From contig JACNKP010000040.1 of NCBI GenBank assembly GCA_014381985.1, positions 1 through 59,889 on the forward strand: a stretch of 59,889 nt of DNA, read 5' to 3'. Made by a program: the position numbers and the translations under genes. The notes under the pieces were generated by a model. It was not told the DNA's origin. It did not search any database and saw only the letters and a list, made by a program, of their open reading frames with translations. This DNA is from SAR92 clade bacterium. Lineage in GTDB: Bacteria; Pseudomonadota; Gammaproteobacteria; Pseudomonadales; Porticoccaceae. Below, one piece after another: positions 16,936 to 29,539 of the stretch (position 1 is the stretch's first letter; every line of letters begins with the position of its first letter).

Positions 16936-17963
16936 GTAAGCGCAGACTCAGTGATCGTCAAAAAGATCGTATTCAATCGATTCAATCTCGCCGCCGTGAA
17001 CGCGCAATGACTAAGAATGCAATTGCGGATGAGGATATTGGCAATCTCGCCAAACTTGGACCCGAGACCCTAGGCACAGTGGTCACCAATTTTGGGTCTC
17101 AAGTGAATATTGAAGCATCAGAAGACCCAATGAAAGGACAGGTAGTGCGTTGTCACATGCGTGCCAACCTCGACAGTCTGGTCACTGGAGATAAGGTCAT
17201 ATGGCGTTTTGCTGAACCCCACGGAGTCGTGGTTGCAAGACAACCACGAGAGTCTGAACTGGTTCGGCCAGACATTTATGGGAAACTCCGTCCAGTAGCC
17301 GCTAATGTTAATTTAATAGCCATTGTGTTTTCGCCAAAGCCTACTGCCTTTAGTAACTTATTGGATCGTTATTTGGTGGCTGCAGAAACTCATGATATTA
17401 AACCATTACTGGTTTTGAATAAAATTGACATGTTGCGTGAAGATGATTATAACGATATTGAGCAGTTGATAGCTGACTACACCTTTATTGGCTATGACAT
17501 TATTCAGGTTTCCTCCAAAACTGGTGAGGGTATTGAAGCCCTCCAAGACTATTTGGCCGGCCAAACAGCAATCTTTGTCGGTCAGTCTGGTGTTGGTAAA
17601 TCGTCGTTGATTAACCTTTTACAACCGCAAGCTAATATGCCGGTTGGCCCTTTATCGCTTGGCAAAGAAAAAGGTACACACACCACAACCATATCTAAAC
17701 TTTTTCACCTTGCTGGTGGTGGTGTATTAATTGACTCCCCAGGGATCCGAGAATTTGCCTTAACGCACCTGAGCAAAGAGAAAGTTATCGACGGATTCAT
17801 TGATTTTCGGCCTTACCTTGGCTACTGTAAGTTCCGCGATTGTAATCATGATAAAGAGGTTGGCTGTAGTCTTTTAGCCGCCGTCGCAGATAAAAGAGTA
17901 CTGGCGATTCGACTCCACAACTATCGTCAGATTCTTTTATCTCAAGAAACCACTAGATTTTAA
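16932..17963 (+). CDS. rsgA: Ribosome small subunit-dependent GTPase RsgA
   Basis: Late 30S assembly GTPase that checks the decoding centre and releases RbfA. The 343-residue protein has a basic N-terminal tail (MSKRRLSDRQKDR), an OB domain (about 45-110), a circularly permuted G domain (G4 LNKIDM near 165, G1 GQSGVGKSSLIN near 217-228, G3 DSPG near 275), and a C-terminal zinc knuckle with CKFRDCNHDKEVGC near residues 298-311. The ATG at 16932 lacks a ribosome binding site and overlaps the stop of a short upstream frame. Divergent from orn. Confidence 0.96.
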   Translation: MSKRRLSDRQKDRIQSIQSRRRERAMTKNAIADEDIGNLAKLGPETLGTVVTNFGSQVNIEASEDPMKGQVVRCHMRANLDSLVTGDKVIWRFAEPHGVVVARQPRESELVRPDIYGKLRPVAANVNLIAIVFSPKPTAFSNLLDRYLVAAETHDIKPLLVLNKIDMLREDDYNDIEQLIADYTFIGYDIIQVSSKTGEGIEALQDYLAGQTAIFVGQSGVGKSSLINLLQPQANMPVGPLSLGKEKGTHTTTISKLFHLAGGGVLIDSPGIREFALTHLSKEKVIDGFIDFRPYLGYCKFRDCNHDKEVGCSLLAAVADKRVLAIRLHNYRQILLSQETTRF

Positions 17964-19763: not shown

Positions 19764-20822
19764 CTATCTACCCTCGGAAAAACGATGTACGGCGTCAATG
19801 AATATTTTAGCATTCGCCGGGTCAATATCTGGAGTAATACCATGGCCAAGGTTAAATATGTGGCCATTGCCTGAACCAAAGGACTGTAAAATTTCCTGTA
19901 CTTTGCTTTCAATCGTTTGCTTATCAGCTCGCAGTACGGCTGGATCCATATTGCCTTGAAGCGATACTTGACTGCCTACACGTTTTTTGGCCGATCCTAT
20001 ATCAACAGTCCAATCCAGTCCTAAACAGTGGCAGCCAGTGGCCGCCATCGCTTCTAACCAATGGCCGCCGCCCTTAGTAAAGAGAATAACTGGGACATCT
20101 CGCCCATCTGCATGTGTAATTAAGCCGTTAATGATTTTCTGCATGTAGGCCAATGAAAATATCTTATAGGCTTGATGTTCCAATGCGCCCCCCCAGGTAT
20201 CAAATATCTGTACCACTTGTGCCCCAGCGCGAATCTGAGCATTCAAATAATCAATAACAGACAGCGTCAACTTTTCGAGTAATTGATGCATTAACTCAGG
20301 CTGGGTATAAAGCATTGTTTTAGCTCTAGCAAAGTCTCGGCTACTCTGGCCCTCAATCATATAAGTGGCTAACGTCCAAGGACTTCCCGAAAACCCTATC
20401 AAGGGCACCCGGCCATTTAATTCGCGTCGGATCATAGTCACCGCATCAGTAACATAACTCAGATCCTTGGCTGTATTAACCACCTGCAACTGATCGATGT
20501 CAGCTTCGGTTCTAACCGGTTTACGAAACTTTGGTCCCTCTCCTTCCTCAAAATACAACCCTAATCCCATCGCATCTGGGATGGTCAAAATATCTGAAAA
20601 TAAGATAGCTGCGTCTAATTCAAAACGCTCTAACGGTTGCAAGGTTACCTCGCACGCTAGCTCAGTATTTTTACAGAGGCTCATAAAATCGCCAGCCTTT
20701 GATCTCACCTGTCGATATTCAGGTAAATAACGGCCAGCTTGGCGCATCATCCATACTGGAGTTTTATCAACAGGTTGACGGAATAAAGCCTTTAAAAAGC
20801 GATCATTTTTAAGTTGTGTCAT
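19764..20822 (-). CDS. hemE: Uroporphyrinogen decarboxylase
   Basis: Decarboxylates the four acetate groups of uroporphyrinogen III to give coproporphyrinogen III in haem synthesis. The 352-residue length is normal. Signature segments are present: [16 protein letters not shown] (about residues 21-36), IDTWGG-type active-site region (FDTWGGAL) and [13 protein letters not shown] (about 143-155). It is the last gene of the leftward block that includes the glutamate-synthase-like gene and the diflavin reductase, 38 bases after the latter, and this gltB-x-hemE order matches Pseudomonas except for the identity of x. Confidence 0.98.
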
Positions 20823-20860: not shown

Positions 20861-22612
20861 CTAGTATACGTCTCTCAGATAACGCTTTTCACGCTTTAGA
20901 TTATTGACGTACTCTCCAGCTTTGTCAGCGGTCAAATCGCCGTGCTCAGCTATGAGGTCGCATAATGCCTGATCTACGTCTTTAGCCATACGTGTCGCAT
21001 CACCACAAACATAAAAATAGCTGCCTTTTTCAAGCCACTCATAAATATTTGCGCCCTGCTCATGCATTTTTGTTTGTACATAAATTTTCTCGTTTTGATC
21101 TCGCGAAAATGCCAAATCAAGGCGAGTTAACAGGCCAGAATTCTGCATCTCCAGTAACTGCTCTTCATAAATAAAGTCTGCAGCTCTGGTTTGATCACCG
21201 AAGAATAACCAATTCTGACCCTTTGCATTACGTACCTGGCGCTCTTCCAAAAAAGCTCTAAATGGAGCAATTCCAGTACCTGGACCAACCATGATCATTG
21301 GTGCATCGTCATTGTCCGGAATACGGAATGCTTTATTAGGTGAAACGAAGATTCCTACTTTACCGCCCTCTATAACCCGATCGGCCAAAAATGTTGAGCA
21401 AACACCCTGGTGCTCCCTACCTTCTGCTTGCCAGCGCACCGAGGCGACAGTAAGGTGCACAGACCCAAGATGCTGCTTGGGACTGGACGAAATAGAATAA
21501 GCACGATGCTGTAATGGCTTCAATAATCCCAAGAATTCTTCAACTGATAACATGACACTAGGATTTAAATTCAATAGATCTAGAGTGTCTTTACTCCACA
21601 AGTAATCAGCTAAGGCTTCTTTGTCACCATTACTTATTACATGGCTAAAGACATCATCCGCAGCCTTTCTCTCTATCGCTGCCAAAAATTCGCGCGAGGG
21701 CGTCGAGATTTCATAGCGATAAGTCAATAATTCGTCAATCGTTTTAGTTTCGCCCTCAGGCACTACGTTTGGCGCTATGACCAATCTTTGTAGAAGAGAT
21801 GAAACTAATGTGCCATTGTTAATTGGCATCACGTTTAGCGCATCACCAGTCTCATAGCTTAGATCACTGTCGGCAAGGTCAAACTCGTAATGACGTATCT
21901 CCTTAGCTGATGATTCTCCAGACAATAGTCTGTTGGCTGTTATAGATGATGGGAAAGGATTCTTACGGTTCCATATTGATTTGACCACGGCTGGTATCAC
22001 ATCTGACTTAGGTGCTACCGCGCTGCCATCGTTAGCAAGAGGAATTACTCTAGCAATCCACTCCTCAGCCATATCCTCGTAGTCGACATCACAATCTATA
22101 CGCTCAACCAAACGCTTGGCTCCAAGTTGTTCAAGCCGAACGTCCAGTAATTTACCTGCTTGGCAAAACTCATCGTAGCCAGTATCGCCCAACGCCAGAA
22201 TACCAAATTGCATTGCCGGTAATTGAGGCATATTAGAAGCTGAAAGAGCCTCCCAAAATAACTGGGTATTATCAGGCATCTCTCCTTCACCATAAGTCGC
22301 TATGGCAATAATGACTCGCTCCATCGCAGAGAATTCCTCGATCGAGACATCATCTAAACCTTGCACTACCGGCTCAAAACCTTGACCTCGCGCTACGTTT
22401 GCCGCATCCATCGCCAAAGCTTCAGCATTACCTGTTTGAGTACCATAGAATATATTAAGTAGAGGCGCTGATGCCGCCCCTGACTTAAGTAATGCGCCGG
22501 CCTGACTCCCAACCATCGCCTTTGCCGATTGCATGCCCGCCAAAAATCCTGCTAACCAAGATTTTTGGTCACCGGTAAACGGAGCATCTTCAGGAATAAA
22601 TGGGAGCTTCAT
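20861..22612 (-). CDS. NADPH-dependent diflavin reductase, CysJ-like (in the gltD position)
   Basis: A 583-residue protein with all parts of a diflavin reductase: an N-terminal helical lead (PFIPEDAPFTGDQ), a flavodoxin FMN domain (about 52-190; FYGTQTGNAEALA, ATYGEGEMPDN, LALGDTGYDEFC), an FAD-binding domain with RAYSISSSP, and an NADPH domain with GPGTGIAPFRAFLEER, FGDQTRAADFIYEEQL and YVCGDATRMAKDVD, ending in KREKRYLRDVY like CysJ. Family knowledge says it passes electrons NADPH-FAD-FMN to a partner, in CysJ the sulfite reductase haemoprotein CysI. No cysI is nearby. It starts 15 bases after the glutamate-synthase-like stop with a GAGG site between, so the two are co-translated, and it replaces gltD in the gltB-gltD-hemE order. 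Inferred partner: the upstream synthase; alternative: an ordinary CysJ. ATG at 22612 is chosen over TTG at 22615. Confidence 0.85.
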   Translation of the reverse strand: MKLPFIPEDAPFTGDQKSWLAGFLAGMQSAKAMVGSQAGALLKSGAASAPLLNIFYGTQTGNAEALAMDAANVARGQGFEPVVQGLDDVSIEEFSAMERVIIAIATYGEGEMPDNTQLFWEALSASNMPQLPAMQFGILALGDTGYDEFCQAGKLLDVRLEQLGAKRLVERIDCDVDYEDMAEEWIARVIPLANDGSAVAPKSDVIPAVVKSIWNRKNPFPSSITANRLLSGESSAKEIRHYEFDLADSDLSYETGDALNVMPINNGTLVSSLLQRLVIAPNVVPEGETKTIDELLTYRYEISTPSREFLAAIERKAADDVFSHVISNGDKEALADYLWSKDTLDLLNLNPSVMLSVEEFLGLLKPLQHRAYSISSSPKQHLGSVHLTVASVRWQAEGREHQGVCSTFLADRVIEGGKVGIFVSPNKAFRIPDNDDAPMIMVGPGTGIAPFRAFLEERQVRNAKGQNWLFFGDQTRAADFIYEEQLLEMQNSGLLTRLDLAFSRDQNEKIYVQTKMHEQGANIYEWLEKGSYFYVCGDATRMAKDVDQALCDLIAEHGDLTADKAGEYVNNLKREKRYLRDVY

Positions 22613-22627
22613 CAAAAGGCCTCGGTA

Positions 22628-25600
22628 TTAACCCACATTGGGTAAGATATCATTTAGAGCATTATGCGCAAAAAGCTCTTCAAAACTAGGGACGCGCCCC
22701 AGCGCAATTTTATTTTTTTGCTGTTGATACAAGATCCAACCATAGGTCGCAGGACTGTCCATTGACAGAATGTTTCGCAACCTCAACGTCTCCTTGAAAT
22801 CATTGAGCCGTTTACCCGCAATCATCGCAGCTAATTCGGCCGCACTATACGCGGAAATCGCTTCTCGCGCATGTCTCAACAACCCGTTCATGAGAGAAAA
22901 GTCCTCTGTTAGAATGAGATTGCGAGTTGCCTTAATTGCATCTGGATGCTCTATAGAGGTCACATCAGGCAAGCGTTTTAATGATATTTTTTGTGCTGCA
23001 TCTAGCACAGAGTAAGTATTAAGTAGCTCATACATGTCACTACTAGCCAATTCAGGATCCGGCACGTCGCCCTTTATCACGGGCTCACCCGAGCGCCACG
23101 CGCGCTTTAATTTATTGACTTGAAACGCCGCAAGAGCAACTGCAAGCTCTTCCAAAAGCTCCTTGCGTGATTTAGCCTCTAAAATCGCTTCATAATCTTG
23201 ATACTGTAGCAGGGCTTTAGGTGTGATATAGGCGAAATTGGCTCGTTCCTCAGCCCAATGCTCCAATAGCCAGGTCGCTTTTTTAGAGTTGGTAGCATCA
23301 ACATGCCACTGCAACAAGGTATGTACGGCCTGAGCGTGTATTTCGGCCTCTTCTGTAGAATCTGCCAGCGAACCTAGTAGCACCGAGTCATGACTGATAC
23401 TGTTGGTGAATTTCCCATAGGGATCGTATTGGTATGCAAAACCACCTGACATGCCATTACCAAAACCTTTGGCAAATGAACCTAAATTAAGTACGGCTCC
23501 GTTTGTCATATATTCAGCGCAGAAATCACCTACACCTTCAACTACGGCAGTCGCACCAGAATTCCGCACGGCAAATCGATCTCCGGCCTGACCTTCAATA
23601 AAGGTGCGACCTCCGGTTGCACCAAACAATGCAAAATTACCAATTAAAACGTTAGTTCCAGGCTTATCACTACCTCCAGGCGGCGCATGAACAATAATTT
23701 CTCCGCCACAAGCGGTTTTTCCAACACCGTCATTGCAAGTGCCGGTATGCTCTAAGACCATGCCGTCGTTACAAAACGCGCCATAGGACTGCCCCGCAGT
23801 ACCATGAGTGGCTATGCGTACGGCTCTACTGGCGAGAAACCGACGTCCCCGACTATCTTCCAACACTGCCGGTAATTGAGATTTCCGAAGTTCATAATTA
23901 AGCATTCGCTCAATATCTATGGCCAGCTGTCCACCAACACTCTTGTTACAGTTATTAAGAAGCTGGCTGCCAGGCAATTGAATGGATACGTGTTTTTTAT
24001 CAATTAAGGCATCTCTGATCACAGCCATAAAGCCATCATCGACGGCAAAATCTCGCTCCATATAGATAGGATTATTAATCTTATATTCTTCAACCACCGT
24101 CAACATTGCCCGCAGATCGAGTTGGCCAACCGATGATGGGTGATCTAGCAAGTGCAGGAAATCACATCTCCCTCGAGCCTCACGCAAGGAGCGAAACCCG
24201 AGTTGTGCCAGTATTTCTCTAACTTCATGGGCTATATTGAGTAGATATTGCCCTAAAGCACGAGGGTCGCCATCGAAGACTTCTGGGTTTGTGGTTAAGC
24301 CCGCGGGGCATTTTATATTGCAATTTTTAGCCATGACACACTTCAACATCATTAGGGCAGTGGTGCCAAACTCAAAGCTATCTCCTCCCATAAGAGCGGA
24401 TTTAACCACGTCTGACCCAGTTTGATGAGCACCAGAACAACGTAAGACCACCTTCTCCCGCAGACCATTGGCACAGAGAGCTTGATGGACCTCAGCAATA
24501 CCGATTTCAGCAGCGCGCCCGGTGTACTTGAGAGAGGTCACTGAAGCAGCGCCAGTGCCACCGGTACTGCCTGCAACATTAATAACGTCTGCACCCGCTT
24601 TGGCAACCCCTACAGCAATCGTACCTATACCATCTGACGAGACAAGCTTTACAATCACTCTCACTCGTGCAGCTTTAGCGTCGTGAATAAGTTGAGCCAA
24701 ATCCTCAATTGAGTAGGTGTCATGATGGGGCGGCGGCGATATCAGCTCTACTCCCGGAACACCTCCACGAGCAGCGGCAATTTCGACATTTACTTTAGGG
24801 GCAGGTAATTGACCACCCTCTCCTGGCTTAGCACCTTGACCAATTTTAATTTCAATTTCTTCAAGCATTGGATCAGCAAGATAACCTGCCCAAACACCAA
24901 ATCGTCCTGATGCAAACTGCTTGATACGTGAAGCTCTAATAGTCCCGTAGCGTGAAATATGTTCTCCACCCTCCCCGCAGTTAGACATTCCACCTACCAT
25001 GTTGGTGCCGTGCGCAACCGCTTCATGGGCTGTAGCCACCAATGCACCGTGACTCATTGCTCCCGACGCCAGTAATGGTGTTATTTCGCTCGCAGGCTGA
25101 ACGTCACTGAGGTCAACTAATGAGGGTGCCGAACGAAGTCGAGCGAAGTAATCTCTAGCTTCCCCTGCAGCAACAATAGATAGTATTTTTCCACTAACCA
25201 ATTGCTCAACGATATGCACACCAAAGCGATCCGAGCACGATTTAGCCAAGGCCTGTAATCGATCTCCCCGATCAGGCAGCGGACCGGTTAATTGCAAAGC
25301 AAAGGTATCATCTCCGAGAGCTTCACATGTTAGTCCTCGAATAATAAAATGGTTATTACCCGCGCGATTGAATAGCATCATCTCATGGCGAAAATCATCG
25401 GCTTCTGAAATAAAACTAATGTCCGCGGGAAAAGCTAAAACATCTCGAAGTGCCGCAGGCCGTCGCGCGCGCTCTTCAGTCATAGCGCGCGAAAAATCTC
25501 TATAGCCGGGCGTAATGTTGAAATTATCAATCTCAGCGTGGGTAAGTCGATCAAAACTGGTGTTAGTGTAGCCCTCATCGCTGATGCCAAAAGCACCCTC

Positions 25601-28102
25601 CATGCGGTTTAGTGTCAGTAAGCGCAATGCTTCATTAGTGCCTCCGTCACCTTTTTTATCAAAACTAATGTCTTCTTCAGTGAGTTCAACAAAACTTCGG
25701 ACCGCTGTGACCCCATACGAATGGCCAGCGCCTTCTGCGCGCTCTTTAAATAATCCCAACATGGGTATATCGCTTTCTACCTCACAGGCAAGGGCACGCT
25801 CATGCCAGTCAGCAGCAGCCTGAGCGATCTCAGTGAACCCTACTCCTCCCACGGGGGATTTCATATTGGGAAAGTAACGGCGAAATACTGGATCATTAGT
25901 ATTTAAAAAGTTTGGCTCAAAAAACTCGCCACCAGAATAACTTTCAACAGTACACAGGCCAACTTTGCCCATTGTCTTCATCAATGCCTTTTCCGCAGCC
26001 TTGGTGAACTTTAAATAAGCCCCATTAACGTTATCAGCAAATTTTTCCTCGGCACGCATCTGTAATCCCATGGGATATACGGCTGATGCGCCAAAACCAA
26101 GAGCACAGGCAACATGGTGAGAGGAACAGATTTGTCCACTTTCAACAATGAGTGATACACGTAATCGCAGACCTGATTCTATTAACCGTTGATTAATAGC
26201 GGATACAATTAAAGTCATTGATATAGACGTATTAGCACGAGAGACATGCCGATCGCTTATGATAGCTATGCCACCTTGCTCTCTAGCAAAGTGTTCTACA
26301 GAATCACAGATTCCATCAATCGCGTTGACTAAAGCCTCTTCGTTGGCACTCACATCACCAAATACAGGCTCATAAAGCATTGGGAAATGACCAACTGGCG
26401 CCTCTTGTTGAGCCCCAATACTCAACATTTGTGAGTGACTGAGAATTGGTGATTGGATCATAATTTGTCTGCCCGCCTTTGCCCCAATGTTAGGCTTAGC
26501 CCCCAGAGCCACCCGCAGCGTCATCCCTTCCGCCTCACGAATTGAATCTAAAGGCGGATTAGTGACCTGCGCAAACCGTTGAGAGAAATATTTAGCAACA
26601 CCGCCTTCATTATCTGACAGCGCATTAATCGCGTTGCCATAACCCATGGCCGACACCTTTTCAGTACCCGTGGCTAGCATCGGATCCATCATAAATCGAA
26701 AGCATTCTTGATTCTGTGAATAGGCGACATATCGACCCGCCAAAGGCAAATCACCAGAATAGCGCGAAGAGGATGCTTTTTGAGATTCGGGGACCGGTGG
26801 AAGGTCTTCGATTAGGATGCGTGCATCATCCACCAGTTTTGCGTAGTCGCGCTGACTGGCCAAGAGTTCAAGAGCCTCAGAGGTAGTAAAAGAACGTTGC
26901 TTCTGGTGATCATAGTACAGCATACCTCCAGCCTCAATTCGTCCGCGGCTTAATACTGCCTCACTACCAAAATCTACCTGACCTGCTTCAGACATCACCG
27001 CGAGATAACGCTCTGTTTCTATCGTTCTTAATGGCCGTAAGCCAAGACGATCTAAGCGCGCGCCGATTATCGAACCATCGCCAAAAATAAGTGCGGCGGG
27101 ACCATCATTTTTCTCTTCATACAAAGAAAAGTACTCAAGCATAGAGCGTACAGGAAACGACAAGCTTGTATCGTTTTCCCAAGCCGGGGGCATCATAGAC
27201 ACAACAGCAGTCACTAAGTCCAGGTCGTCTTCCACAACACGAGAGTGTAATGTTTGATCTAAACGACAGCTATCTGACTGCCCTTTTGGCCTGATAATAT
27301 TGTTTTCTTTAGCCCTCGCAATAGCGGCCTCGGACAATCGATTCTTTTTATCAGTATTCAGCTCTCCGTTGTGCGCCATCAATCTAAATGGCTGAGCCAT
27401 AGAGGGGTGAGGGTCTGTATTCGTTGAGAATCGAGTATGGAAGTAGAGCGTATTAATACTTTGGTCTACATCATTAAGATCACAAAAATAAGGCACAATT
27501 TCATAGGAATTTAAACGACCTTTAAGCACTTGCATGCGAGATGACATTGAAAGAGGGTACATTCCGTCAAGATCCTCATCGATATAAGCTTCTGACTCTA
27601 TTGAGAGTAACGCTTTGTGTATCCTTTTCTCTAGCGCCGCACCCCTTGTTCCTTTTGGCGCCGCAAAAATCCACTGAGCTATAGGTAGCTGATATTTAAT
27701 TGCAGCCGGACGCAACACCGAATCGTCAACGTCTACACTCCGTGTAATAAGTGTAATCATACCCTCTGCTTTAAGGGCCTCATCAATGAGTTTTTTAGCT
27801 CTAACATGCTGACTTTTATCGTTGGGCAAGAAAAAATTACCCACTCCAAACTCACCAGGCGCTAGACTAGCGCCGACAACTCTGCTGAAAAATGTAACTG
27901 ACAAGTCAATTGAGACACCTGCTCCGTCACCAACCCCTTCAGCTGACATGCCTCCGCGGTGAGGCACCGCACACAGTGCTTCATGGCCTTTAACCAATAA
28001 TTCATGGGTCTGCTTACCGTCTTTTCGAGTAAGAAAACCCACGCCGCAACTACTTTTTTCAAAAGTACTGTCGTATAGGCCAAAGTTTTTTACATCATTC
28101 AT
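22628..28102 (-). CDS. gltB: Large glutamate-synthase-like protein (GltB family, extended)
   Basis: A very large, 1824-residue relative of the glutamate synthase alpha subunit. N-terminal class II glutaminase domain: short propeptide then Cys19-G-V-G-F, the predicted mature nucleophile, with PHRGGMSAEGVGDGAG, FHTRFSTNT and AHNGELN. FMN/synthase domain from about residue 1000: GAMSHGAL, PGEGGQLPAPKV, LISPPPHHDTYSIEDLAQL, GGTGAASVTSLK. The iron-sulfur motif is C1255-x5-C1261-x3-C1265, against C-x5-C-x4-C in classical GltB. A glycine-rich beta-helix (GXGXG type) domain follows, with GGFAYQYD near 1552. About 270 residues remain after that, far more than usual, and the region before the FMN domain is also longer (about 905-1000 has no clear classical counterpart). 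No gltD follows; a diflavin reductase does. Predicted glutamate formation from glutamine and 2-oxoglutarate is probable but unproven for this variant. Start ATG 28102 preferred to GTG 28108. Confidence 0.85.
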   Translation of the reverse strand: MNDVKNFGLYDSTFEKSSCGVGFLTRKDGKQTHELLVKGHEALCAVPHRGGMSAEGVGDGAGVSIDLSVTFFSRVVGASLAPGEFGVGNFFLPNDKSQHVRAKKLIDEALKAEGMITLITRSVDVDDSVLRPAAIKYQLPIAQWIFAAPKGTRGAALEKRIHKALLSIESEAYIDEDLDGMYPLSMSSRMQVLKGRLNSYEIVPYFCDLNDVDQSINTLYFHTRFSTNTDPHPSMAQPFRLMAHNGELNTDKKNRLSEAAIARAKENNIIRPKGQSDSCRLDQTLHSRVVEDDLDLVTAVVSMMPPAWENDTSLSFPVRSMLEYFSLYEEKNDGPAALIFGDGSIIGARLDRLGLRPLRTIETERYLAVMSEAGQVDFGSEAVLSRGRIEAGGMLYYDHQKQRSFTTSEALELLASQRDYAKLVDDARILIEDLPPVPESQKASSSRYSGDLPLAGRYVAYSQNQECFRFMMDPMLATGTEKVSAMGYGNAINALSDNEGGVAKYFSQRFAQVTNPPLDSIREAEGMTLRVALGAKPNIGAKAGRQIMIQSPILSHSQMLSIGAQQEAPVGHFPMLYEPVFGDVSANEEALVNAIDGICDSVEHFAREQGGIAIISDRHVSRANTSISMTLIVSAINQRLIESGLRLRVSLIVESGQICSSHHVACALGFGASAVYPMGLQMRAEEKFADNVNGAYLKFTKAAEKALMKTMGKVGLCTVESYSGGEFFEPNFLNTNDPVFRRYFPNMKSPVGGVGFTEIAQAAADWHERALACEVESDIPMLGLFKERAEGAGHSYGVTAVRSFVELTEEDISFDKKGDGGTNEALRLLTLNRMEGAFGISDEGYTNTSFDRLTHAEIDNFNITPGYRDFSRAMTEERARRPAALRDVLAFPADISFISEADDFRHEMMLFNRAGNNHFIIRGLTCEALGDDTFALQLTGPLPDRGDRLQALAKSCSDRFGVHIVEQLVSGKILSIVAAGEARDYFARLRSAPSLVDLSDVQPASEITPLLASGAMSHGALVATAHEAVAHGTNMVGGMSNCGEGGEHISRYGTIRASRIKQFASGRFGVWAGYLADPMLEEIEIKIGQGAKPGEGGQLPAPKVNVEIAAARGGVPGVELISPPPHHDTYSIEDLAQLIHDAKAARVRVIVKLVSSDGIGTIAVGVAKAGADVINVAGSTGGTGAASVTSLKYTGRAAEIGIAEVHQALCANGLREKVVLRCSGAHQTGSDVVKSALMGGDSFEFGTTALMMLKCVMAKNCNIKCPAGLTTNPEVFDGDPRALGQYLLNIAHEVREILAQLGFRSLREARGRCDFLHLLDHPSSVGQLDLRAMLTVVEEYKINNPIYMERDFAVDDGFMAVIRDALIDKKHVSIQLPGSQLLNNCNKSVGGQLAIDIERMLNYELRKSQLPAVLEDSRGRRFLASRAVRIATHGTAGQSYGAFCNDGMVLEHTGTCNDGVGKTACGGEIIVHAPPGGSDKPGTNVLIGNFALFGATGGRTFIEGQAGDRFAVRNSGATAVVEGVGDFCAEYMTNGAVLNLGSFAKGFGNGMSGGFAYQYDPYGKFTNSISHDSVLLGSLADSTEEAEIHAQAVHTLLQWHVDATNSKKATWLLEHWAEERANFAYITPKALLQYQDYEAILEAKSRKELLEELAVALAAFQVNKLKRAWRSGEPVIKGDVPDPELASSDMYELLNTYSVLDAAQKISLKRLPDVTSIEHPDAIKATRNLILTEDFSLMNGLLRHAREAISAYSAAELAAMIAGKRLNDFKETLRLRNILSMDSPATYGWILYQQQKNKIALGRVPSFEELFAHNALNDILPNVG

Positions 28103-28140
28103 AAGCACAGATTCTTAGTTGAGGACATTTACCGCAATAG

Positions 28141-28359: not shown

Positions 28360-29475
28360 TTAACTATGGCAAAATTTAGCGAGAGTGATATCCATCCATT
28401 CCTGAGGAAAATCCTGGCTAACATACGCTGCCCCCAGCCTTCTTAGTAGAACCAACCTCAATTGCCCATCAAGCACCTTCTTATCTCGATGCATTAGCGT
28501 CATGAAAGCATCTGCCGGCATGTCCTCAGGAGGAGCCACCGGCAAAGAAAAGAGGCTGATTAACTTTTTACTTCGGTCAACATCTATTTGAGCAAGATCT
28601 CCTGCGTTCATCGACAAATCAAGCGCCATTGCCATGCCCGCAGCTACTGCTTCGCCATGCAGCCACCCTTGGTACGCCTGAAAAGTTTCAATAGCATGGC
28701 CAAAAGTATGGCCAAGATTAAGAATAGCTCTAATGCCATGCTCGGTTTCATCCGCACTCACGATTTTAGCCTTGTTAATACAGGATTTCTCTATAGCAAC
28801 ATTCAAAGCTGTCTTATCTCGGCGTATTAGCGCGCCGGCATTGGCTTCTAACCACTCGAAGAACGGATAGTCTGCTATCAACCCATATTTAATAACTTCA
28901 GCCATTCCGGCGAAAAACTGCCTGTCGGGCAGCGTATCAAGAGTATCGGTGTCTATAATCACTGCTATTGGCTGGTGAAAAGCGCCCACCATGTTTTTAC
29001 CCAAAGGGTGATTCACGCCCGTTTTGCCGCCAACTGACGAATCAACCTGAGCCAATAGCGTGGTCGGAATTTGAACAAAAGGAACACCTCGTTGATATGA
29101 GGCTGCTGCAAAACCAGTCATATCTCCCACAACTCCACCCCCCAAAGCTATCAGCGTGGTCTTTCGGTCATGGTTTTGTTCGAGCAACTTAGTAAAAATA
29201 CTGTTCAAATGTTCGAGAGTTTTAAAACGCTCTCCATCAGGCAAGGCTACTACATCAACTTGCTTGCCCTCCAAACCTGCCGTTATAGATTCTAGATACA
29301 GAGGGGCAATCGTTTCATTAGTAACGATAAGAACCTTTCCGCCCTGAACATATTGATTCAGATCAACTAAAGAGATTTGCTTGGGACCGATAATGATAGG
29401 GTAGCTTCTATCCCCTAAATCAACGGCAATATGTTTTGAAGCCTTAGGGTCAGGGCTTTCAGAATTAGTCATCAT
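28360..29475 (-). CDS. aroB: 3-Dehydroquinate synthase
   Basis: NAD-dependent, zinc-containing enzyme that converts DAHP to 3-dehydroquinate in the shikimate pathway. The 371-residue protein has GLxxKQ-like N-terminal elements, the NAD-binding region with [21 protein letters not shown] (near 105-125), [19 protein letters not shown] (near 135-153) and the zinc ligands in [11 protein letters not shown] and [12 protein letters not shown] chose ATG 29475 (AAGAG upstream) over GTG 29484. It follows aroK by 64 bases in the same direction, the usual aroKB pair. Confidence 0.97.
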
Positions 29476-29539
29476 AACAAGCACTCTTAAAAATACGCGC
29501 TCTATTTTAACCTGTTAATTACAGATTTGTTTAACCCTT

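Follow-up and report, generated by a model that had tools for sequence, protein, structure and literature searches.

A putative glutamate synthase of a SAR92 clade bacterium in which a diflavin reductase stands in the place of GltD

The DNA analyzed here (the window) is a stretch of 59,889 nt from contig JACNKP010000040.1 of the SAR92 clade bacterium assembly GCA_014381985.1; the source genome (G000) comprises 2.5 Mb in 82 contigs and is 98% complete. The genes of interest lie on the minus strand. The first of them, aroB (3-dehydroquinate synthase; 28360..29484), was recognized by Pfam and by its conserved position. It is followed by a long relative of gltB, referred to as gltB-L, which was located by the ORF list and Pfam and occupies 22628-28102 from its ATG, or extends to 28108 from an upstream GTG; with the GTG at 28108 as start the ORF list gives 1826 aa. 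The third gene (20861-22612 from its ATG) encodes a CysJ-like NADPH-FAD-FMN diflavin reductase of 583 aa, the presumed electron-input subunit, assigned by the ORF list, Pfam and NCBIfam, and the fourth is hemE (19764..20822), assigned by similarity and conserved position. Flavodoxin_1 (the FMN domain, PF00258; 22061..22453), FAD_binding_1 (21389..21967) and NAD_binding_1 (20972..21292) are all detected by Pfam in the diflavin protein. The spacer between the gltB-L stop and the diflavin ATG measures 15 nt (22613-22627). ORF coordinates and Pfam domains agree in this respect with an earlier note on this DNA, which had described a GltB-family gene followed after 15 bases by a complete CysJ-type reductase and then by hemE. 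Both genes share one reading frame (window 20861-28105), with only one stop in that frame, a TAA, between them. Promoter- and terminator-like sites were not more numerous than in shuffled sequences.

The gltB-L protein carries the Pfam domains GATase_2, Glu_syn_central, Glu_synthase and GXGXG in this order, and the five relatives found in the PDB are all glutamate synthases. Against the NCBIfam model PRK11750 (GltB equivalog) it scores 1034.9 bits, just below the cut-off of 1047. The class II glutaminase domain has a conserved cysteine (in CGVG; residue 20 counted from 28105; 28046..28048, minus strand) that aligns with C12 of Escherichia coli GltB, is nearly invariant across canonical and long rows of the alignment, and is taken to be the expected N-terminal nucleophile. 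The FMN and 2-oxoglutarate segments are likewise kept with respect to canonical GltB, presumably with the residue roles that they have in known glutamate synthases. When 16 canonical rows (13 from the family of the window and the E. coli sequence counted three times) were compared with 77 long rows, 693 columns were nearly invariant in the former, of which 310 were kept and 172 were fixed to another state in the latter. A replacement of K by M within GGKSNSGEGGE was considered as a modification of the substrate site and dropped, because E. coli has N at that position and the change means little.

Two segments are added to this core, both delimited by alignment. An insert of about residues 803-985 (25151..25699, minus strand) separates the central domain from the FMN domain; it is mostly missing from E. 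coli GltB and gave no significant match in Pfam and PDB sequence searches. Its AlphaFold2 model has a mean pLDDT of 66, with ten-residue blocks of 78-94 from model residue 151 onward; the model being poor overall and the PDB fold matches weak (NikA the best with E 0.097; YbgJK 0.10; AhrC 0.27), no role could be read from its fold. The second segment is a C-terminal extension of about 178 residues (22631..23164, minus strand), which is modeled as all helical with a mean pLDDT of 87. By sequence, solved GltB chains match only its first 50 model residues, that is, the end of the canonical part, and beyond this point no significant match was obtained in Pfam or among PDB sequences. Its fold was equally uninformative as to a role, the best PDB fold match (E 0.58) not being significant.

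The iron-sulfur cysteine motif is also altered. By alignment, gltB-L carries C1256-x5-C1262-x3-C1266 (24308..24340, minus strand), a spacing shared by 94 of 95 long ORFs (some genes being counted more than once), with one ORF lacking the motif. The canonical C-x5-C-x4-C is found in all 32 canonical rows, so that gltB-L keeps the three cysteines but not the x4 spacing. In a second column comparison, confined to the synthase half and set up with 32 canonical and 82 long rows, the cluster loop (E. coli 1098-1125) contains 8 fixed differences, 5 kept columns and 1 variable column; outside the loop there are 34 fixed differences, 165 kept columns and 37 variable ones. The excess in the loop (Fisher, different vs. 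same, p 0.0008) is indicative, as the rows are related. In known glutamate synthases the Fe-S cluster is the point of electron entry, and an excess of differences in this loop points to a strongly altered donor-facing part. The cluster loop of gltB-L may thus be viewed as a remodeled presumed electron entry in a protein whose catalytic columns, in the synthase half, are mostly kept.

Genome-wide profile searches identified gltB-L as the single GltB of the source genome; a third PF01645 match, below the cut-off, was read as an IMP dehydrogenase. Fer4_20, the mark of GltD, is absent from this genome, and the same search was positive in 9 of 14 control genomes. The only NIR_SIR protein lies on another contig (C52). 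The window thus contains neither gltD nor cysI, as pointed out in the earlier note. With regard to other routes to glutamate, the single PF00208 match, a candidate glutamate dehydrogenase (GDH), was read as a zinc-type alcohol dehydrogenase (L093). A large NAD-type GDH is present, so that this organism may also make glutamate without gltB-L, and the claim of a sole route was rejected.

The chromosomal position of the pair was examined in the family to which the window belongs; of 60 genomes sampled, three (G000, G051 and G013) contain gltB-L. None of the three has a recognizable GltD: G000 and G013 lack any Fer4_20 match, and that of G051 is a 591-aa frame far below the GltD cut-offs (209 vs. 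483 and 168 vs. 448), a frame size also seen beside a GltD-sized match in many genomes of the family. A GltD-sized match occurs in all 10 other genomes of the same genus that were sampled. The 13 canonical relatives examined (10 of the same genus and 3 of other genera) all have the order aroK-aroB-gltB-gltD-hemE. The window and its gltB-L relatives amount to 14 loci, two of which (L058 and L125) apparently belong to one genome, their contigs being equal in length; in all 14 the diflavin gene is followed by hemE, and the 12 long enough to show the other flank all have aroB upstream of gltB-L. As relatives of the same genus keep aroB-gltB-gltD-hemE, gltBD has been exchanged in place, with aroB as the upstream and hemE as the downstream flank. 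The occupation of the gltD slot by the reductase had been proposed from the gene order of Pseudomonas, which we take to be gltB-gltD-hemE; it is now borne out within the family itself, where gltD lies at that site in 13/13 canonical relatives. In two genomes of the family (G018 and G022) there is no GltD-sized match to Fer4_20, and no strong match to GltB, canonical or long.

A comparable situation was found in Erwiniaceae (Pantoea, Mixta and Winslowiella), where all 11 loci have gltB-L and the diflavin gene next to arcB, with sspBA following in 9. In E. coli the order is arcB-yhcC-gltBD, with sspBA about 16 kb beyond gltD. Since yhcC was not found in the 11 Erwiniaceae loci, the shared slot is a neighborhood and not a base-exact match. 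Fer4_20 was absent from the four genomes tested (L067, L072, L083 and L085) out of the 11 with loci. SAR92 and Erwiniaceae copies fall into different starred groups of a quick tree, and by this placement the apparent exchange near arcB looks like an event separate from that of SAR92.

Not all carriers of gltB-L lack GltD. Fer4_20 was surveyed in 40 gltB-L genomes, some of them bins, chosen from the best 80 of 336 loci. It was missing from 15, including a Pantoea agglomerans genome with gltB-L on a contig labeled as a complete chromosome. Among the 25 with a match, two have doubtful ones only (G060 and G084) and 23 have a plausible GltD; the latter may carry both systems, and their gltB-L could borrow GltD or serve another role. 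A tandem gltB-gltD-gltB-L-diflavin arrangement occurs beside yhcC and arcB in one genome (G166; L209 and L216; L209:7174-19899), as if at an early stage of displacement, and its GltD passes the TIGR01317 cut-off.

The earlier note had also proposed to survey genomes for the gene pair, which proved to be conserved across phyla. A contig scan confirmed 336 gltB-L stretches, the best 80 of which were used for locus counts; according to their record titles these belong to the SAR92 group, Rhizobiales, Rhodobacterales, SAR116, Betaproteobacteria, Erwiniaceae, Actinomycetota and one verrucomicrobial bin. In 78 of these best 80 the diflavin gene lies directly downstream of gltB-L, with 16-202 nt between match edges; in the other two (L054 and L060) a contig edge falls inside the gene. 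The source genome and 26 others chosen from the same best 80 of 336 loci were searched for diflavins, and each of these 27 gltB-L genomes holds one that is 51-100% identical to that of the window, the remaining ones being full-length paralogs of at most 46% identity and three partial C-terminal-half matches of 49-51%. Within 397 genomes of the window's phylum, the insert of gltB-L was found in six. When at most three candidate diflavins per genome were scored, the six highest-ranking ones (48-100%) came from these same six genomes, and each lies adjacent to gltB-L by its coordinates; the next-best full-length diflavins reach 43-45%, and one partial match 51%. Distances among gltB-L proteins and among their diflavins agree: over 58 of 82 pairs r is 0.91, a value reached by 0 of 2000 permutations, and the two trees have 35 of 55 splits in common (without species-tree control).

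Genetic evidence on this large-subunit family comes from Pantoea ananatis. Strain AJ13355 was reported to have no close homolog of the glutamate synthase (GOGAT) of E. coli, and its putative gltB (PAJ_RS19710) to be 64% identical to a GOGAT large subunit of Agrobacterium tumefaciens (Kharchenko et al., 2025; PMC12364357). According to the same article, which credits Hara (2012), knockout of gltB in P. ananatis results in glutamate auxotrophy; the knockout reported concerns gltB only. The main text of PMC12364357 makes no mention of gltD, flavoprotein, sulfite, small subunit or electron, and the passage that names gltBD refers to E. coli. The P. ananatis copy compared here (L069) shares 68% identity with each of three gltB-L proteins from Agrobacterium, a value that differs from the 64% published for the A. 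tumefaciens comparison (PMC12364357), and 30-42% with E. coli GltB. Being close to the Agrobacterium proteins and far from E. coli GltB, this copy indicates that the gene knocked out in P. ananatis is almost certainly gltB-L, as judged from L069 and not from the AJ13355 gene itself. The published phenotype supports a GOGAT function for the gltB-L family.

Bacterial NADPH-GOGAT is conventionally described as composed of GltB and GltD, and GltD passes electrons from NADPH to GltB through FAD and two [4Fe-4S] clusters; diflavin reductases deliver theirs through FMN. In known glutamate synthases, ammonia derived from glutamine combines with 2-oxoglutarate to give 2-iminoglutarate, which is reduced to glutamate. 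On the evidence given above, the pair most probably encodes a glutamate synthase in which GltD has been replaced by the diflavin reductase (probability about 0.86). We infer that the two proteins form a complex, with the diflavin docking through the added segments of gltB-L. NADPH would give a hydride to FAD and then FMN within the diflavin, from whose FMN single electrons would pass to the Fe-S cluster of gltB-L and on to the FMN of gltB-L, where 2-iminoglutarate formed from 2-oxoglutarate and glutamine-derived ammonia would be reduced to glutamate; the two [4Fe-4S] clusters of GltD would be dispensable. The suggestion of the earlier note, that NADPH electrons may reach the GltB-like protein via the diflavin, gains support from the pairing, the replacement in place, the agreeing distances and the P. 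ananatis knockout.

Another explanation, which we regard as unlikely, is a gltB-L that works as a GOGAT dependent on ferredoxin or flavodoxin, with the diflavin reducing this carrier instead of gltB-L directly. A ferredoxin-dependent glutamate synthase operates without GltD, and its representative PDB 1llw has a large-subunit core in common with gltB-L. A stand-alone flavodoxin gene (17192-17716; nearest to MioC, below the cut-off) follows the diflavin gene at one Rhodococcus locus (L052), and in a second Rhodococcus genome (G086) a flavodoxin-like match lies just after the diflavin. The alignment breaks at the extra residues of 1llw, presumably the ferredoxin loop, and gltB-L, in contrast to 1llw, runs through without them, as E. 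coli GltB does. Besides, it is paired with an NADPH-diflavin reductase that already contains an FMN domain, and no carrier gene adjoins the pair in the other loci sampled. Of 20 proteins scanned, 16 flank gltB-L, in 7 of more than 80 loci, and no related partner was found other than the Rhodococcus flavodoxin; five matched no Pfam family and could be spurious ORFs.

It is very unlikely that the diflavin is CysJ, the flavoprotein of sulfite reductase, and lies beside gltB by chance. The protein does resemble CysJ: it is 37% identical to the E. coli protein, exceeds the NCBIfam cut-off for PRK06214, "sulfite reductase subunit alpha" (448 vs. 432 bits), and scores 577.6 bits with TIGR01931 (cysJ equivalog). 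In 5 of the 27 gltB-L genomes, moreover, it is the only diflavin found. The TIGR01931 score is, however, under the cut-off of 668.15, which is passed by a second CysJ-type diflavin of the source genome (702 bits). This second gene adjoins that of the NIR_SIR protein on contig C52, where the order of ORFs is that of a cysJ-cysI-cysH cluster (cysH read by eye). As the sulfite reductase has its own CysJ, the diflavin of the window is not needed to explain sulfite reduction. The situation that the earlier note had named as contrary to its proposal, a separate gltBD together with cysI and no other cysJ, does not occur here, since there is no gltBD and cysI has its own CysJ beside it. Lastly, the diflavin trails gltB-L across phyla.

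A product other than glutamate, to which the 172 columns fixed differently from the narrow canonical set, the insert and extension, the adjacency to canonical gltBD in one genome and the coexistence with a plausible GltD in others might point, is hardly credible given the conserved glutaminase cysteine and FMN/2-oxoglutarate segments, the presence of gltB-L in place of gltBD in two lineages and the glutamate requirement of the P. ananatis gltB knockout (PMC12364357).

The gene pair likely represents an additional class of glutamate synthase, the NADPH-diflavin GOGAT. Its large subunit would form a lineage apart, marked by a particular cluster loop and the two added segments, and would have evolved together with a diflavin similar to CysJ and NasN. 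As a unit, the two genes would have spread from phylum to phylum and repeatedly displaced gltBD in place; in SAR92-type marine bacteria and in Pantoea this enzyme would be the principal route of ammonium assimilation. It resembles the NADPH-GltBD of the E. coli and Azospirillum type in the four Pfam domains of the large subunit, the catalytic segments and the same or neighboring chromosomal slots; it differs in having a diflavin in lieu of GltD, the insert, the C-terminal extension and the C-x5-C-x3-C loop. With CysJ-CysI sulfite reductase it shares a CysJ-type diflavin feeding an Fe-S enzyme, but the presumed acceptor is a GltB relative and the diflavin, which misses the cysJ equivalog cut-off, is not linked to cysI. 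NasN (Tan et al., 2020, cited in PMC11001197) is described as the NADPH-dependent diflavin nitrate reductase by which Mycobacterium smegmatis assimilates nitrate. There, too, a diflavin serves as the NADPH input of a nitrogen-assimilation enzyme; in NasN it is fused to a molybdopterin enzyme, whereas the partner of gltB-L would be a separate GOGAT subunit.

No description of the gltB-L/diflavin pair was found in the open-access literature, to which the search was mostly confined. A different electron-input subunit, if true, would alter the way in which nitrogen assimilation is deduced from the genomes of SAR92-type marine bacteria, rhizobia, actinobacteria and Pantoea. Some gltB-L genomes look as if they lacked GOGAT, gltB-L being annotated as "glutamate synthase-related" and the reductase matching a sulfite reductase model. 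The pair also offers a test case for which features of GltB take electrons from the clusters of GltD and which from a mobile FMN domain.

As regards the origin of the diflavin, a quick tree built from 84 such proteins places the gltB-L partners together, apart from E. coli CysJ and from the sulfite-reductase CysJ of the source genome. The partner clade is not strictly monophyletic: three long-branched sequences not beside a known gltB-L (L213, L170 and L070) sit among its deepest branches, because of which the partner label needs two changes. Just outside this clade are eight diflavins from long open frames of 1373-1559 aa. One of them (L214) is, by family scan, a molybdopterin oxidoreductase fused to a diflavin; its nearest models are assimilatory nitrate reductase and formate dehydrogenase, with both cut-offs missed, and in our reading it is akin to NasN. 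In two mycobacterial genomes a second CysJ-like diflavin gene, whose product is 43-44% identical to the diflavin of the window, lies about 3 kb upstream of gltB-L (L062:5140-6873 and L070:5189-6922).
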